Shown here piece after piece: positions 6,600-63,549 of a DNA stretch of 64,000 nucleotides. The notes under the pieces were generated by a model, which was given only the letters and a program-made list of their open reading frames with translations, ran no database searches and was not told where the DNA came from. Each line of letters starts with the position of its first letter. The first letter of the stretch is position 1. The stretch is from Mesorhizobium sp. (GTDB lineage: Bacteria; Pseudomonadota; Alphaproteobacteria; Rhizobiales; Rhizobiaceae), in NCBI GenBank assembly GCA_004017535.1, contig SAJS01000025.1, forward strand, positions 1 through 64,000. Reading direction: 5' to 3'. The translations under genes were made by a program, and so were the position numbers.

Positions 6600-7304
6600 A
6601 TGCGTGAGATCATCTTCGATACGGAAACCACCGGCCTCGATTTGCGCGAAGACCGCATCATCGAGCTCGGCGGCGTCGAGCTGGTCAACCGTTTCCCGAC
6701 CGGCCGCACCTTCCACAAATTCATCAATCCCCAGGGTCGCGCCATCCACGCCGAGGCACAAGCCGTGCATGGCATCAGCGCCGCGGACCTGGTGGGGAAG
6801 CCGACCTTCGCCGAAATCGTCGATGAGTGGCTGGCCTTCACCGACGGCGCCAAGCTGATCGCGCATAACGCCACCTTCGACCTCGGCTTCCTCAATCTCG
6901 AATACAGCCGGCTCGACCATCCGGCCATCGATCCCGGCCGCATCATCGACACTCTGGCCCTGGCGCGCCGCAAGCATCCGATGGGCCCGAACTCGCTCGA
7001 CGCGCTCTGCCGCCGCTACGGCATAGACAACACGCGCCGCACCAAGCACGGCGCGCTGCTCGACTCCGAATTGCTGGGCGAAGTCTATATCGAGCTCATC
7101 GGCGGCAAGCAGGCGGCGCTGGTGCTGGAGGCCGTGTCGGTGCAGATGAACGGCGCCGGCGAGGTGGCCGATATCGACATCTCCATCGGCGCCCGGCCCA
7201 TCGCCCTGCCGCCGCGTCTGAACGAAGCGGACCGCGCCGCGCATGCCGGGCTGGTTTCGACGCTCGGCGAAAAGGCGCTTTGGCTGAAGGTCGCGGTGGG
7301 CTGA
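6600..7304 (+). CDS. dnaQ: DNA polymerase III epsilon subunit (3'-5' exonuclease)
   Basis: Proofreading subunit of the replicative polymerase. The 234 residues hold the DnaQ exonuclease motifs: Exo I FDTETTGLD (about 6-14) with the catalytic Asp and Glu, Exo II AHNATFDLGFL with its Asp, and Exo III HGALLDSELL with the His and Asp. The C-terminal part would bind the alpha subunit. It lies 75 bp after coaE. Confidence 0.96.
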   Translation: MREIIFDTETTGLDLREDRIIELGGVELVNRFPTGRTFHKFINPQGRAIHAEAQAVHGISAADLVGKPTFAEIVDEWLAFTDGAKLIAHNATFDLGFLNLEYSRLDHPAIDPGRIIDTLALARRKHPMGPNSLDALCRRYGIDNTRRTKHGALLDSELLGEVYIELIGGKQAALVLEAVSVQMNGAGEVADIDISIGARPIALPPRLNEADRAAHAGLVSTLGEKALWLKVAVG

Positions 7305-7357
7305 GGCTCAGAGCGCCCCAACGTGGACTATTGAGATTAGCCGGAACTTTCGCGACT

Positions 7358-7422
7358 TCGTCATCCTAGGGCGGAGCAAGGAACGAAGCGACGCGCGCAG
7401 ACCCTAGGATCCATGCCGTGAC
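7358..7422. repeat. Palindromic intergenic repeat, copy B (left of GIY-YIG gene)
   Basis: The stem ATCCTAGGG (7363-7371) pairs perfectly with CCCTAGGAT (7402-7410), around gcggagcaaggaacgaagcg and the rest of the loop. The outer side is cgtcat and the inner tail is ccatgccgtgac. It is inverted relative to copy C at 7822-7884, with the inner tails of both facing the GIY-YIG gene between them. Confidence 0.9.
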
Positions 7423-7462
7423 ACTGGTGCTATGCTCCGACGGTGCAAGAAACCGGACGAAG

Positions 7463-7750
7463 CTACCACCCTGTCCCACGGAAAAGCTCGAACCATTGCG
7501 GGTTGTTCTTCTCGATCACCTCGATTTTCCATTGCCGCGGCCATCGCTTCAGTGACCGCTCGCGTTGGATGGCATCGGCAATGTCGAAATATTCCTCATA
7601 CCAGACCAGTCGCTGCACCCTGTAGCGGCTGGTGAAACGTGAGCCAGCGCCCGCTTTGTGCTCCGGCATGCGGCGGCCAAGATCGTTGGTGACACCGATA
7701 TAAATTGTGCCGCGCTTCTGGCTTGCGGTCATGTAGACGTAGCCGGTCAT
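7463..7750 (-). CDS. Small GIY-YIG endonuclease-domain protein
   Basis: The 95-residue product is a stand-alone GIY-YIG domain of the YhbQ/UPF0213 type. GYVYM at the start supplies the GIY-like strand, and GTIYIGVTNDLGRRMPEHK carries the YIG-like motif, the conserved Arg and the H-x-x-G region. RERSLKRWPRQWKIEVIE carries further conserved basic residues. Such domains cut DNA with one divalent metal. The gene is bracketed by inverted copies B and C of a repeat that is scattered through the window. This arrangement resembles REP-flanked RAYT transposase genes, although the nuclease fold is different. The link to the repeats is inferred from position only. Confidence 0.92.
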   Translation of the reverse strand: MTGYVYMTASQKRGTIYIGVTNDLGRRMPEHKAGAGSRFTSRYRVQRLVWYEEYFDIADAIQRERSLKRWPRQWKIEVIEKNNPQWFELFRGTGW

Positions 7751-7821
7751 CGTTTCAGGGTAGCGAGCATTGATGCGCGTACAAGGCCATTCCTGGTCCG
7801 GAGCATTCTACGGCTAAAGTT

Positions 7822-7884
7822 ACGGCATGGATCCTAGGGTCTGCGCGCGTCGCTCCGCTCCTTGCTCCGCCCTAGGATGACGAC
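7822..7884. repeat. Palindromic intergenic repeat, copy C (right of GIY-YIG gene)
   Basis: The stem ATCCTAGGG (7831-7839) pairs with CCCTAGGAT (7870-7878). The inner side reads acggcatgg and the outer side gacgac. It is the inverted partner of copy B. The 9-bp stems of B and C are identical, so the pair could also form a large cruciform enclosing the GIY-YIG gene. Confidence 0.9.
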
Positions 7885-7920
7885 CGCGCTGAGGTTTTTC
7901 GGCAATCCCCGACGTCCCAA

Positions 7921-7948
7921 CAAAAAAGCCCGGCACTCGGCCGGGCTT
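7921..7948 (-). terminator. Rho-independent terminator of secB
   Basis: Read on the minus strand, AGCCCGGC (7940-7947 complement) pairs with GCCGGGCT (7927-7934 complement) around a 5-nt loop and runs directly into TTTTTT. It lies about 25 bp after the secB stop codon. The stem is GC-rich with a clear T run. Confidence 0.88.
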
Positions 7949-7972
7949 CTCGTAACTCGATGAGGCGCCTTC

Positions 7973-8473
7973 TCAGCTCACCTGGACCTTGCTCGCGGCC
8001 TGGTCCTCGGCGATGCGCTGCTGGAACATCTGCGCGAAATCGATCGGGTCGAGCATCAGTGGCGGGAAGCCGCCATTGCGGGTGGCGTCGGAGATGATCT
8101 GACGAGCGAAGGGGAACAGCAGCCGCGGGCATTCGATGAACAGGATCGGCAGCATGTGCTCCTGCGGGAAGCCCGAGATGGCGAAGACGCCGCCATAGAC
8201 CAGCTCGACATTGAACAGCACTTCCTGGTCGAAGGAAGCCTTGGCGTTCAAGGTCAGGTTGACGTCGAACTGCTTGTCCGAAAGCGGATTGGCGTTGACG
8301 TTGACATTGATGGCGATGCCAGGAGCCTTGTCGCGGCCGCGCAGCGAGTTCGGCGCGCCGGGGCTTTCGAAGGAAAGATCCTTCACATACTGGGCAAGCA
8401 CATTGAGCGAGGGCTGGTTCTGGGTGCCGTTGCCATTGGCGGCGCCGGTCGCCGCGTCATCATTGCTGGCCAT
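7973..8473 (-). CDS. secB: Protein-export chaperone SecB
   Basis: Tetrameric cytosolic chaperone that keeps preproteins unfolded and hands them to SecA. The 166 residues fit the alphaproteobacterial family. The N-terminus is a Gly/Asn/Ala-rich tail of about 20 residues. It is followed by [21 protein letters not shown], the conserved beta-strand region ([21 protein letters not shown]), and [24 protein letters not shown] strong terminator follows. It is monocistronic, between the GIY-YIG locus and fxsA. Confidence 0.97.
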
Positions 8474-12572: not shown

Positions 12573-12599
12573 CGTTGCTCCGCCCTGGAATGACGAAAC
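12573..12599. repeat. Degraded half of the palindromic repeat, copy H
   Basis: The bases cgttgctccgccctggaatgacg plus flanks match the outer half of copies A, C and G (cttgctccgccctagaatgacg) with few differences. The other half is eroded; only tcatggagtc at about 12543 resembles it. It lies between the Cys-rich peptide gene and the BTLCP gene. Confidence 0.6.
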
Positions 12600-29186: not shown

Positions 29187-29273
29187 TCGCGCAAGGTTTC
29201 GGGCCGGCGATCGGCCGCCGCGACGAAGTTTCGCCATAGGCAAGCCGTAGCCGGGGCTATCCCTTTGTTTTGA

Positions 29274-29320
29274 CGCAATTCCGGACGGAAAACCGCTCAC
29301 ACTTTTCTTGGAATTGCTCT
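29274..29320. repeat. Dyad repeat GCAATTCC...GGAATTGC (copy 1)
   Basis: GCAATTCC (29275-29282) and GGAATTGC (29310-29317) enclose ggacggaaaaccgctcacac and following bases. Further copies lie at 42096-42163 (same orientation, with an insertion) and 63469-63511 (opposite orientation). It is a common rhizobial intergenic element. Confidence 0.8.
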
Positions 29321-32723: not shown

Positions 32724-32733
32724 GGCGCAGCTT

Positions 32734-32910
32734 CCTTCTCCCCGTCACTATACGGGGAGAAGGTGCCCGAAGGGCGGATGAGGGGCAACTCCGGCTTCGG
32801 CGACTAACTCCTCCGTGCTCCAAGTGGAGCCGGAACCCCACCCGATCAGCGTCGGCGCCGCCCCTCACCTGCCTGCCGGCATCCTCTCCCCGTATAGTGA
32901 CGGGGAGAGG
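32734..32910. repeat. Mosaic repeat with two mutually inverted hairpins
   Basis: ctccccgtcactatacggggag (32738-32759) and its exact reverse complement (32886-32907) lie about 125 bp apart. Each is itself a hairpin (CTCCCC/GGGGAG). The intervening sequence includes ggtgcccgaagggcggatga and cccctcacctgcctgccggc. This is the layout of RIME-like rhizobial mosaic elements. It may also serve as the transcription end of gpmA. Confidence 0.8.
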
Positions 32911-33035
32911 GAAGCTCCCGCCGCCGGTTTCGCCAATCGCTGGCGTCGCAGGAAGGGCAATGACGGGCAGCGCCAGTGCCGACGAAAAAAGCGCGTTGAC
33001 ACATATCGTTTGCCCGCTTACATGAGCGCCCACCA

Positions 33036-36152: not shown

Positions 36153-36196
36153 GGCCTTATCCGCCAGCGCTCAAGATTAGCCTTTGACCTCGGAAC

Positions 36197-36260
36197 TTCG
36201 TTATCCCAGGGCGGAGCAGGAGCGAAGCTCCGTCGCGGAGACCCTAGGATCCATACCGTG
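36197..36260. repeat. Palindromic intergenic repeat, copy D
   Basis: ttatcccagggcggagcagg starts the element and accctaggatccataccgtg ends it, in the orientation of copy B. It is paired with inverted copy E 55 bp to the right, inner tails facing each other. It lies immediately outside the tRNA-Leu island. Confidence 0.85.
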
Positions 36261-36315
36261 AGGTCGAGGCGTTGCGGCGCTCCAGAATTCTGCTCTGCTG
36301 CGTTCTCCGACAAAG

Positions 36316-36381
36316 GTCACGGCATGGATCCTCGTGTCTGCGCCGTCGCTCCGTTCCTTGCTCCGCCCGTGGATGACGAAG
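36316..36381. repeat. Palindromic intergenic repeat, copy E
   Basis: cacggcatggatcctcgtgt starts the element and ccgcccgtggatgacgaa ends it, in the orientation of copy C. It represents a sequence subtype (CCCGTGGAT arm) that reappears on the left of copy I. With D it forms an inverted pair with no gene between. Confidence 0.85.
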
Positions 36382-36468
36382 GCGTGTAAGCCATCAGCCA
36401 CCTGCCCTTCCGGCCAGTCCTTCAACAAACCGCTTCAAACCCGCCGCCGTGGGCGCTACGGTCGCGCC

Positions 36469-38670: not shown

Positions 38671-39018
38671 GCTCGCTCTGTCTGCGCCTCCCCAGGGCGG
38701 GACATAGAGACGAAGCGTTAAACATCTCCTTCCGATTCGGTTAACGGGCGGAGGAAAGCAAATGTCGTCCCTCGCTACCTGAGGCCAATCGCCCATGGCA
38801 GCGCTGGCCCCCGCTCCGTCTCGGCGCTACGCGCCGATCCACCTCTCCCCCACTTTGTGGGGGCGAGGAAACGCTAATCGTCGACGGCGCGGCCTTCACA
38901 AGCCTGGGTTCCTCGCCCCGCCAGAGGCGGGGAGAGGTGGCTCGGCGAAGCCGAGACGGAGAGGGGAGCGCCCTTCGCGATTAACCGCCGGATGCGCTTC
39001 CTTTCGCCTGCAAGCCAA
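38671..39018. other. Intergenic with a mosaic repeat, no gene seen
   Basis: Two inverted hairpin units, cctctcccccactttgtggg at about 38842 and the cctcgccccg...cggggagagg unit at about 38911-38937, are separated by about 45 bp. They resemble the repeat after gpmA. The rest is low in coding signal. Confidence 0.6.
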
Positions 39019-42095: not shown

Positions 42096-42163
42096 GCAAT
42101 TCCCGGGCGGAAGGCTACGGCGAAGGCGCCGAGCCTAACCGCTCACACTTTTCCTGGAATTGC
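42096..42163. repeat. Dyad repeat GCAATTCC...GGAATTGC (copy 2)
   Basis: GCAATTCC (42096-42103) and GGAATTGC (42156-42163) frame the same core as at 29275-29317, with about 25 extra bases. The right arm touches the stop codon of the cystathionine gamma-lyase gene. Confidence 0.75.
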
Positions 42164-43333
42164 TCAGTGCGCCAGCGCCTGCTCCAGGTCCGCGACCAGA
42201 TCATCGCCGTCCTCGATGCCGCAGGAGAGCCGCACCAGCGAATCGGTGATGCCGATCGCCCCGCGCTTCTCTGCCGGGATCGAGCCGTGCGTCATCAGCG
42301 CCGGGTGCTCGATCAGGCTTTCGACGCCGCCGAGGCTTTCGGCCAGCGTGAAGAGCTGGGTGCGTTCGAGGAAGCGTTTCGTCCCGGCAAGATCGCGGTC
42401 GAGATCGACCGAGATCATGCCGCCGAAGGCATGCATCTGCTGCACGGCGATGGAATGCTGCGGGTGGCTGGCGAGGCCGGGATAGATGACCCGGCGGACA
42501 TCTTTTCGCGTTTCCAGCCATTGCGCTATTTTCAGGCCATTGGCCGAGTGGCGCTCCATCCTCAGCGCCAGGGTTTTTATGCCGCGCAGCGCCAGGAAAC
42601 TGTCGAAGGGGCCGGAGATGGCGCCGATGGCGTTCTGCAGGAATTTCAGTTGGTCGGCGAGATCCTTGTTGTCGCCGACCACCGCCACGCCACCGACCAT
42701 GTCGGAATGGCCGTTCAAATATTTCGTCGTCGAATGCACCACGATGTCGATGCCGAGCTCCAGCGGGCGCTGGATATAGGGGCTGCAAAAAGTATTGTCG
42801 GCGACGGTAAGCAGACCCTTACGCTTTGCAAGCGCCGCGAGAGCCTCGAGATCGACGATGCGCAGCAGCGGATTGGTCGGCGTCTCGACCCAGAGCAGCT
42901 TCGTGTCCGGCCGGATCGCTGCCTCGACTGCGGCAAGGTCGGTGAAGTCGGCGAAGCTCACCTGCAGCCCCGCCGAGCGCTTGCGCACCCGTTCCATCAG
43001 CCGGAACGAGCCGCCATAGATATCGTCGGTGGCAACGATATGGGCGCCGGAATCGAGCAGCTCGAGCACCGTCGAGATCGCCGCCAGGCCGGAGGCGAAG
43101 GCGAAAGCCCTGGTGCCGCTTTCAAGATCGGCGACCGCGCGCTCGAAGGCAAAGCGCGTCGGGTTCTGGCTGCGGGCGTATTCAAAGCCCTTGTGCACGC
43201 CGGGCGACTGCTGGCCGTAGGTGGAGGTGGCGTAGATCGGCACCATCACCGCGCCGGTCAGCGGGTCGTGGCTCTGGCTGCCATGGATGGTGCGGGTGGA
43301 AAAGGCCAGGCGGTTCTTGCCGTTTGAAGTCAT
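42164..43333 (-). CDS. Cystathionine gamma-lyase (PLP, Cys/Met metabolism family)
   Basis: The 389 residues form a Cys/Met-metabolism PLP enzyme: YGQQSPGVHKGFEYARSQNPTRF, FASGLAAISTVLELL, and HSTTKYLNGHSDMVGG with the PLP lysine. The reaction (gamma-lyase rather than synthase) is inferred from the adjacent cystathionine beta-synthase gene, the pair of reverse transsulfuration. The start overlaps the stop of that gene as ATGA. Confidence 0.9.
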   Translation of the reverse strand: MTSNGKNRLAFSTRTIHGSQSHDPLTGAVMVPIYATSTYGQQSPGVHKGFEYARSQNPTRFAFERAVADLESGTRAFAFASGLAAISTVLELLDSGAHIVATDDIYGGSFRLMERVRKRSAGLQVSFADFTDLAAVEAAIRPDTKLLWVETPTNPLLRIVDLEALAALAKRKGLLTVADNTFCSPYIQRPLELGIDIVVHSTTKYLNGHSDMVGGVAVVGDNKDLADQLKFLQNAIGAISGPFDSFLALRGIKTLALRMERHSANGLKIAQWLETRKDVRRVIYPGLASHPQHSIAVQQMHAFGGMISVDLDRDLAGTKRFLERTQLFTLAESLGGVESLIEHPALMTHGSIPAEKRGAIGITDSLVRLSCGIEDGDDLVADLEQALAH

Positions 43334-46601: not shown

Positions 46602-46656
46602 GGTCATTCTAGGGCGAAGCGACGCAAAGCGTCGCGCAGACCCTGGAATCCATACC
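46602..46656. repeat. Palindromic intergenic repeat, copy F
   Basis: tcattctagggcgaagcgac begins the copy and gaccctggaatccataccgc ends it, oriented like B. The centre is shortened relative to B. The inner tail faces copy G about 85 bp away. Confidence 0.8.
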
Positions 46657-46740
46657 GCTACGTACATGATAGGCGCCACGGTGCAGAATGATGGCCTCGC
46701 GCGCACCGGACGCTTTGCACCGCAGTATCGCTTCTATATC

Positions 46741-46803
46741 GCGGCATGGCTTCCAGGGTCTGCACGCGTCGCTTCGCTCCTTGCTCTGCCCTGAAATGAC
46801 GAC
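46741..46803. repeat. Palindromic intergenic repeat, copy G
   Basis: gcggcatggcttccagggtc begins the copy and cttgctctgccctgaaatga ends it, oriented like C. It is partly degraded (TTCCAGGG against CCCTGAAA). Confidence 0.8.
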
Positions 46804-46854
46804 GGACAGGGACCGCTCAGCCAATACCCTCCACAACGGGGAGGGTAAGCCCGC

Positions 46855-57479: not shown

Positions 57480-57540
57480 CTCGTCATCCACGGGTGGAGC
57501 AAGGAGCGAAGCGACGCGCGCAGACCCTAGAATGACGACG
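57480..57540. repeat. Palindromic intergenic repeat, hybrid copy I
   Basis: The left end cgtcatccacgggtggagca is of the E subtype and the right end accctagaatgacgacg of the A subtype. Both ends carry the outer TCAT side, and the ccatgccgtg tail is missing. It therefore looks like a recombinant between two copies. Confidence 0.7.
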
Positions 57541-63440: not shown

Positions 63441-63468
63441 GGCGGCCCCGGCTGCTTGTGTCCCCAAA

Positions 63469-63511
63469 GCAATTCCAGGAAAAGTGTGAGCGGTTTTCCG
63501 TCAGGAATTGC
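63469..63511. repeat. Dyad repeat GCAATTCC...GGAATTGC (copy 3)
   Basis: GCAATTCC (63469-63476) and GGAATTGC (63504-63511) enclose aggaaaagtgtgagcggttt and following bases, in the opposite orientation to copies 1 and 2. It lies upstream of the DCC-family gene. Confidence 0.8.
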
Positions 63512-63549
63512 GTCAAACTAGCGAGACATTAAGCCAGCCGGCGGCTGCG

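Follow-up and report, generated by a model that had tools for sequence, protein, structure and literature searches.

A small GIY-YIG nuclease gene framed by inverted CGTC-tagged palindromes: a candidate REPtron-like mobile element in Mesorhizobium and distant bacteria

In the 64-kb stretch of Mesorhizobium DNA analysed here (the window), a gene for a 95-residue GIY-YIG nuclease lies inside a pair of inverted CGTC-tagged palindromes, and the same pairing is found around related genes across the genus and in distant bacteria. The framing is specific and recurrent, the palindromes are gene-specific, the units occupy many sites and include some recent copies within the same genome, relatives carry repeat-free sites, and the gene is under purifying selection with its catalytic residues intact. 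The reading we favour, with a probability of about 0.6, is a small mobile element acting like a REPtron with an unrelated enzyme, in which the nuclease would recognise the hairpin ends and drive the spread of both the unit and gene-less dimers; we infer the cleavage and the mobilisation. A REP/RAYT-like arrangement with a GIY-YIG enzyme had been proposed in the initial annotation, and the framing seen in the genus and at distant loci supports it. The same annotation suggested that the nuclease may cut or copy these palindromes.

The nuclease gene (Pfam GIY-YIG, PF01541, E 2.1e-16) was confirmed between repeat copies B (7355-7421, plus strand) and C (7885-7820, minus strand), where it had first been placed. 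The two copies do share an identical 9-bp stem (ATCCTAGGG/CCCTAGGAT) and face each other with their inner tails, as had also been described: the CCATGCCGT tails point toward the gene and the CGTC heads outward. Each palindrome runs from CGTC through a stem arm, a loop of about 30 nt and the second stem arm to CCATGCCGT, and the inverted arms span 78 nt at 88% complementarity. The unit sits between two convergent genes, a dnaQ-like gene at 6600-7304 (plus) and a secB-like gene at 7973-8473 (minus), their names being read from the translations. Its parts are as follows.

7359-7882, no strand: complete 524-bp unit, bounded by the outer CGTC and the outer GACG; the edge is set by the loss of conservation outside CTT/CGTC in 126 outer flanks
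7359-7413, plus strand: left palindrome (copy B), with head CGTC 7359-7362, stem arms 7363-7371 and 7402-7410, and CCA tail 7411-7413
7828-7882, minus strand: right palindrome (copy C), inverted, with head 7879-7882, stem arms 7870-7878 and 7831-7839, and tail 7828-7830
7463-7750, minus strand: GIY-YIG nuclease gene, 95 aa, with Y6, Y17, R27, H31, E64 and N83 all present

A known RNA family was rejected as the identity of this region, as Rfam gave no match at gathering score across 7200-8100. The convergent dnaQ-secB intergenic space (7305-7972) seems to be a hot spot in the genus; in several relatives it holds, besides CGTC repeats, another palindromic insert of the type CCCCCTCTGGCCTGCC...CTCCCCC...GGGGGAGAT.

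We built a profile from copies B and C alone and scanned the 64-kb window with it at E<0.01. Nine places were recovered, of which eight are clear repeats (at least 27.7 bits) and the ninth is a 25-nt remnant, so that the at least nine copies counted initially stand if the remnant is included and become eight if it is not. Besides the one gene unit, the window holds two gene-less inverted dimers, one half dimer, one collapsed single hairpin and the remnant.

36194-36383, no strand: gene-less inverted dimer, plus copy 36194-36262 and minus copy 36316-36383, oriented as around the gene
46602-46804, no strand: gene-less inverted dimer; its inner spacer has CGGTGCAGAA at 46679-46688, also inside the second gene unit (L001)
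74-208, no strand: half dimer, minus copy complete (143-208), plus copy reduced to its CCATGCCGTGAC tail (74-85)
57482-57537, plus strand: collapsed single hairpin, bounded by CGTC and GACG; the same form is seen at sites that in relatives are filled with the gene
12574-12598, minus strand: repeat remnant, 25 nt, profile E 0.0018

The plus copies of the two dimers have altered heads (CGTT, GGTC). CGGTGCAGAA is common to the 46.6-kb dimer, the half dimer and L001, as would be expected if these two gene-less forms were internally deleted derivatives, and the 10-mer alone, with one mismatch allowed, is within chance in the window. The whole genome of 6.86 Mb contains 65 copies of the repeat core against none of a reversed control pattern. 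In an alignment of 15 copies (A2) the CGTC head and CCA tail are invariant or conserved at 90% or more; the 9-bp stems are fully paired in 11 of the 15, with paired changes among them, and have at least one mismatch in the other four. Other repeats also occur in the window. A second dispersed repeat, AGCAATTCCAGGAAAAGTGTGAGCGGTTTTCCG, is present at 29269-29318, 42137-42164 and 63468-63517 in copies matching at 96-100%, and long inverted repeats with CTCCCC-type stems at 32729-32916 and 38832-38947 (arms of 45 and 39 nt) are likely further intergenic palindrome families.

Framing of the nuclease gene is the rule throughout the genus. Both close GIY-YIG paralogues in the same genome lie between inverted copies, one of them (L001) framed identically to the window unit; a third Pfam match there (L003, an open frame of 732 aa) is a different, longer protein. 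Protein matches at E<=0.001 were present in 72 of 119 genus genomes, with up to ten per genome when fragments are counted, and a number of the gene copies are decayed, carrying stops or split into pieces. Among the 30 best loci (L004-L033, one per genome and the window's included) a left copy was found in all 30 and a right copy in 29, at a near-edge distance of up to about 110 bp; the right copy of the single exception is 1 kb away. When the sample was taken to 73 units (these 30, L001, 20 more near-full-length copies, 12 out of 20 that are weaker, decayed or divergent, and 10 copies in close relatives), 70 were framed on both sides within 300 bp. BLAST grouping of the outer flanks, which can over- or under-merge, assigns the 73 units to 33 sites. 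Eight loci were left out of this count because they are divergent: one (L055) lies between 137-nt arms of another CGTC palindrome, five (L054, L056, L057, L062, L063) are flanked by a dimer on just one side, a single copy is present at L059, and L061 has none near. The initial annotation had reasoned that orthologues mostly lacking flanking repeats would speak against it; those of the genus are framed as just described, and framing extends to other classes and phyla. Chance framing is rejected by these counts, together with distant loci that exceed their controls (below).

The edge of the unit is sharp. Across 126 outer flanks, taken from the 134 ends of 67 units and filtered for unlike flanks, conservation falls from 1.9 bits at the last T of CTT/CGTC to near zero within a few bases, with a weak CC remaining at -9/-8; this filter is coarser than the grouping into 33 sites, and the 126 therefore include orthologous sites. 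Like insertion sequences and MITEs, the units have terminal inverted repeats that end abruptly. At two units, L244 and L246, the outer flanks are mutually inverted for about 20-40 bp, and same-site units in other genomes (L249, L253) have unlike flanks, which suggests inverted copying or conversion at the ends.

The catalytic set of GIY-YIG enzymes (Y, Y, R, H, E, N) is invariant in 32 of 32 aligned diverse relatives, and the six residues are conserved in 78-80 of the 80 intact rows, a figure that counts duplicates. Purifying selection on the gene is strong: the median pairwise dN/dS among 58 distinct intact copies from the close subfamily (at least 75% identity) is 0.055, and the 30 closest pairs give 0.093. 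For the fold we used the alignment-based prediction (pLDDT 91.3; from the single sequence, 50.6). Its nearest match is UPF0213, followed by Slx1 and the UvrC nuclease domain, with E<0.001 for the first match only; the titles of the Slx1 entries refer to branched DNA and 5'-flap DNA. A phage origin was rejected, with one weak match among 50,697 phage records. Homologues were found in 35 of 72,556 plasmid records, 25 of these being rhizobial or from Sphingobium.

We then looked beyond the genus with a tag-and-stem detector (GTCA, an 8-bp stem with at most one mismatch, and a CC tail), applying it to the best 80 of 584 confirmed stretches in a set of 84,980 species genomes and to 29 loci from a class sample of 289 genomes. 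Of the best 80, 18 close loci were set aside; these had a hairpin on either side in 17 cases and on both sides in 14. Among the 62 distant loci that remained of the best 80 of 584, a correctly oriented CGTC hairpin lay within 300 bp of the gene in 41 and on both sides in 22, compared with 17 and 3 of 116 control ORFs (neighbours of at least 100 aa in the same loci; p 6e-12 and 5e-9). Shifted windows gave 43 of 1005 for any side and 1 of 1005 for both. In the class sample, 18 of 29 loci had a hairpin and seven had one on both sides, against 2 and 0 of 101 shifted windows. The other 21 of the 62 distant loci had no tagged hairpin in the right orientation within 300 bp. In a tag-free test, the inverted match between the left and right flanks exceeded the 99th percentile of the controls at 46 of 60 distant loci. 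A hairpin is present at all 11 of the loci that are non-proteobacterial or unplaced by their titles (Omnitrophota, Parcubacteria, Uhrbacteria, Bacteroidetes, Chloroflexi, Acetothermia, UBP14 and SpSt-1139); these come almost entirely from metagenome bins, in which contamination is possible. Two arrangements stand apart: in Rhizobium bangladeshense (L126:2285-3333) two GIY-YIG copies lie 653 bp apart, each with CGTC hairpins of the same stem, and in genome G130 (L310) a whole palindrome dimer stands on each side of the gene (inverted match score 113).

For most genes the two flanking palindromes agree with each other and differ from those of other genes. At 30 two-sided loci (the 22 distant ones above, seven of the class sample and L055) the left stem matches the right one at 7.2 of 8 positions, compared with 5.1 between loci (permutation p 1e-4). 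For the 20 genes of four multi-copy genomes, the match between a gene's own flanks has a median of 33.5 versus 18 for cross pairs, and it beats every cross pair in 14 genes (p 5e-5) and not in the other six. Most genes have their own palindrome type, which argues against mere hitch-hiking on host repeats. The loop class of the repeat clusters on the protein tree (26 changes against 38.2 when shuffled, as low in 0 of 200), and does so more weakly when Mesorhizobium copies are removed (23 changes, with 27.9 when shuffled and a value this low in 1 of 200); many forks of that tree are unresolved, and this tracking is suggestive only.

Repeat number rises with the gene. The median number of repeat cores is 37.5 in the 50 genus genomes with a near-full-length gene, 18 in the seven with fragments only and 13 in the 62 with neither; carriers differ from the last group at p 1.3e-6 and the Spearman correlation between repeat and gene number is 0.54 over 119 genomes and 0.68 among the 50 carriers, kinship being ignored throughout and each gene unit itself contributing two cores. 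Two carriers (G006, G051) have none of this core and a variant loop in their flanks. The initial annotation had held that equally many repeats in gene-less genomes would count against it: on average they have fewer, but 7 of the 69 genomes that lack a near-full-length copy hold at least 40 cores, and 58 of the 69 hold some.

These exceptions favour the stronger of two live rivals, in which the palindrome pairs move by other means (replication slippage or another host enzyme) and the gene is enclosed cargo kept for repair, defence or the like. The 2 to 1 excess of gene-less dimers over gene units in the window points the same way, and the low dN/dS is also compatible with a host function. Even so, we regard a passenger gene as unlikely. 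One gene family is accompanied by different palindromes in distant bacteria, most genes having their own pair, which a single capture event cannot explain, and the copies are often decayed, with none of near-full length in 69 of the 119 genomes of the genus, which is not how a useful host gene behaves. A RAYT was rejected as the mover in the window's own genome, where no PF01797 (Y1/RAYT) match was found; elsewhere a RAYT may play that part, as three of seven multi-copy relatives have a Y1 match.

The relationships among the units point to movement. Three units at unlike places in genome G034 are nearest relatives (L030 with L247, L246 with L247), and their similarity ends just outside the unit; for another same-genome pair (L017/L037) it continues about 40 bp further on one side. 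Of 68 units, seven have their nearest relative in the same genome, 34 have it at the same site of a different genome and 27 have it elsewhere, the random expectation being 0.9 for the same genome and 3.6 for the same site. The units appear to spread within genomes, but slowly, since same-site relatives outnumber those of the same genome, and most are old.

To compare filled sites with their counterparts in relatives we used 39 stretches at four sites (A-D). One carries a broken unit, three a single hairpin, and 35 have no repeat of this type, several of the latter with one flank not found. Sites A, B and C often hold other inserts, and site D is clean: found in nine genomes, it is filled in three, and in the other six (the window's own genome included) both flanks are present without a repeat, which indicates gain or loss of the unit as a whole. 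Inspection of this site by eye, its empty allele being the cleanest, revealed no target-site duplication. The single hairpins, bounded by CGTC and GACG, occur at site C in the window's genome and one relative and at site B in one relative; this is the form expected after deletion between the 9-nt stem arms. In relative G080, site A (L255) has a different hairpin (GTATGGACGGCC...GGCCGTCCATA) between the same outer CGTCAT...ATGACG ends, as if another palindrome were using them.

The dnaQ-secB site itself was followed in 54 genomes (60 regions minus seven without a recognisable secB, plus the window). Of these, 23 have no repeat recognised by the profile, 21 have a repeat or dimer without the gene (two of them weak partial matches only) and 10 have gene sequence, in either direction (3 versus 7, fragments counted). 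Both the series of states and the variable direction would be expected of the second live rival, a homing cycle in which the nuclease cuts pre-existing palindrome dimers and repair copies the gene in, the repeats having spread otherwise. GIY-YIG enzymes are classic homing nucleases, the free-standing ones being copied in this way, and NCBIfam gives a match with endonucleases of group I introns that falls far short of the cut-off. We consider homing a little less probable still than a passenger gene: site D lacks any repeat in all six relatives, and in the eight two-copy gene-less cases listed for dnaQ-secB the left partner is a short palindrome and not of the unit's own type.

A shared terminator or coincidence, the hairpins terminating transcription in both directions next to small genes where intergenic DNA is rich in repeats, is already disfavoured and very improbable, for while the window unit does lie between convergent genes and REPs are mostly downstream of coding regions in the survey text available to us (PMC3733652), hairpins on both sides mark 3 of 116 neighbouring ORFs against 22 of 62 GIY-YIG loci (best 80 of 584), left/right pairs are gene-specific and the unit edge is sharp.

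We return to a mobile element with the nuclease as its enzyme. The pairing is found again at many sites and in bacteria far removed from Mesorhizobium, and no better candidate than this nuclease is at hand for the enzyme, so far missing, behind the spread of a widespread class of bacterial palindromes. In the wider form of this reading, towards which we lean somewhat less firmly, the 95-residue GIY-YIG protein would be the dedicated mobilising enzyme of CGTC-tagged REPs across several phyla, recognising the hairpin ends and co-evolving with them, and the REP/RAYT life-style would have evolved independently on an unrelated fold. A possible mechanism starts from a unit whose ends are CGTC-tagged REP palindromes with tags outward and whose sole gene is that of the nuclease. 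The enzyme may bind the hairpin or cruciform of its own palindrome type, formed by single strands at the fork or as an extruded cruciform, and may nick near the hairpin foot beside the CTT/CGTC boundary. GIY-YIG enzymes hydrolyse DNA without a covalent intermediate and so, unlike HUH transposases, cannot rejoin strands alone; strand joining is the weak point of the proposed mechanism. It would be left to host repair, and repair and replication could copy the unit, or gene-less dimers, into new intergenic places; this copying route is conjectural. The dimers would be the non-autonomous form (REPIN/MITE-like) sharing the unit ends, and loss would proceed by deletion between the stem arms, leaving a single-hairpin footprint.

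A small nuclease gene inside an inverted CGTC pair, present in many genomes and each time with palindromes that are largely its own, can be tested directly and at little cost. If the reading is true, elements of the REP type have two origins, with unrelated enzymes, and a bacterial mobile element has a GIY-YIG nuclease as its sole enzyme; should the nuclease prove to be the mover, this would be a new class of transposable element. The initial annotation knew of no described GIY-YIG system of this kind, and among the papers that our search of mainly open-access journals brought up, none ties GIY-YIG to such repeats.

Among known proteins, the small GIY-YIG proteins of UPF0213 (PDB 1zg2, 1ywl) are the closest solved relatives by sequence and by predicted fold, and we know of no palindrome link for them. 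Free-standing GIY-YIG homing endonucleases are alike in having the nuclease fold and a mobile gene with one enzyme; the element described here differs in its palindromic ends, in lying outside introns and in the lack of a large DNA-binding domain (95 aa).

Among known repeats, the palindromes appear to fit the CGTC-tagged REP superfamily, loop length apart. A 2013 survey (Di Nocera et al.) describes these REPs as a CGTC head, an 8-9 bp stem starting AT, a 4-5 nt loop and a CCA tail, arranged in HH dimers, found mainly in Alphaproteobacteria, in many of them, and also in several other phyla; in its text available to us, the superfamily is not associated with transposase genes and seems to be without a dedicated transposase (PMC3733652). 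Head, stem, tail and HH dimers (the window dimers and the gene units) are shared, whereas the loop is about 30 nt in the Mesorhizobium repeats; the 4-5 nt loop is seen in the short partner of the gene-less dnaQ-secB dimers and at many distant loci. In place of the transposase gene that the survey did not associate with these repeats, a GIY-YIG gene here stands inside the HH dimer.

The closest parallel in behaviour is the REPtron or REPIN with its RAYT (TnpA-REP, a Y1 HUH enzyme). Both have a nuclease-type gene framed by palindromes that recur genome-wide, inverted dimers with tags outside, a repeat type belonging to each enzyme gene and a patchy distribution; each RAYT has its own REP family in the text of that study available to us (PMC6006769). 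The enzyme is Y1 HUH there and GIY-YIG (PF01541) here, and the tag at the hairpin foot is GTAG there and CGTC here. REPtrons are also said, in the same available text, not to appear to transpose as a unit (PMC6006769), whereas here whole units occupy many sites, with up to ten matches per genome. Because the HUH enzyme is absent, the element is not a REPtron; by analogy it would work like one.
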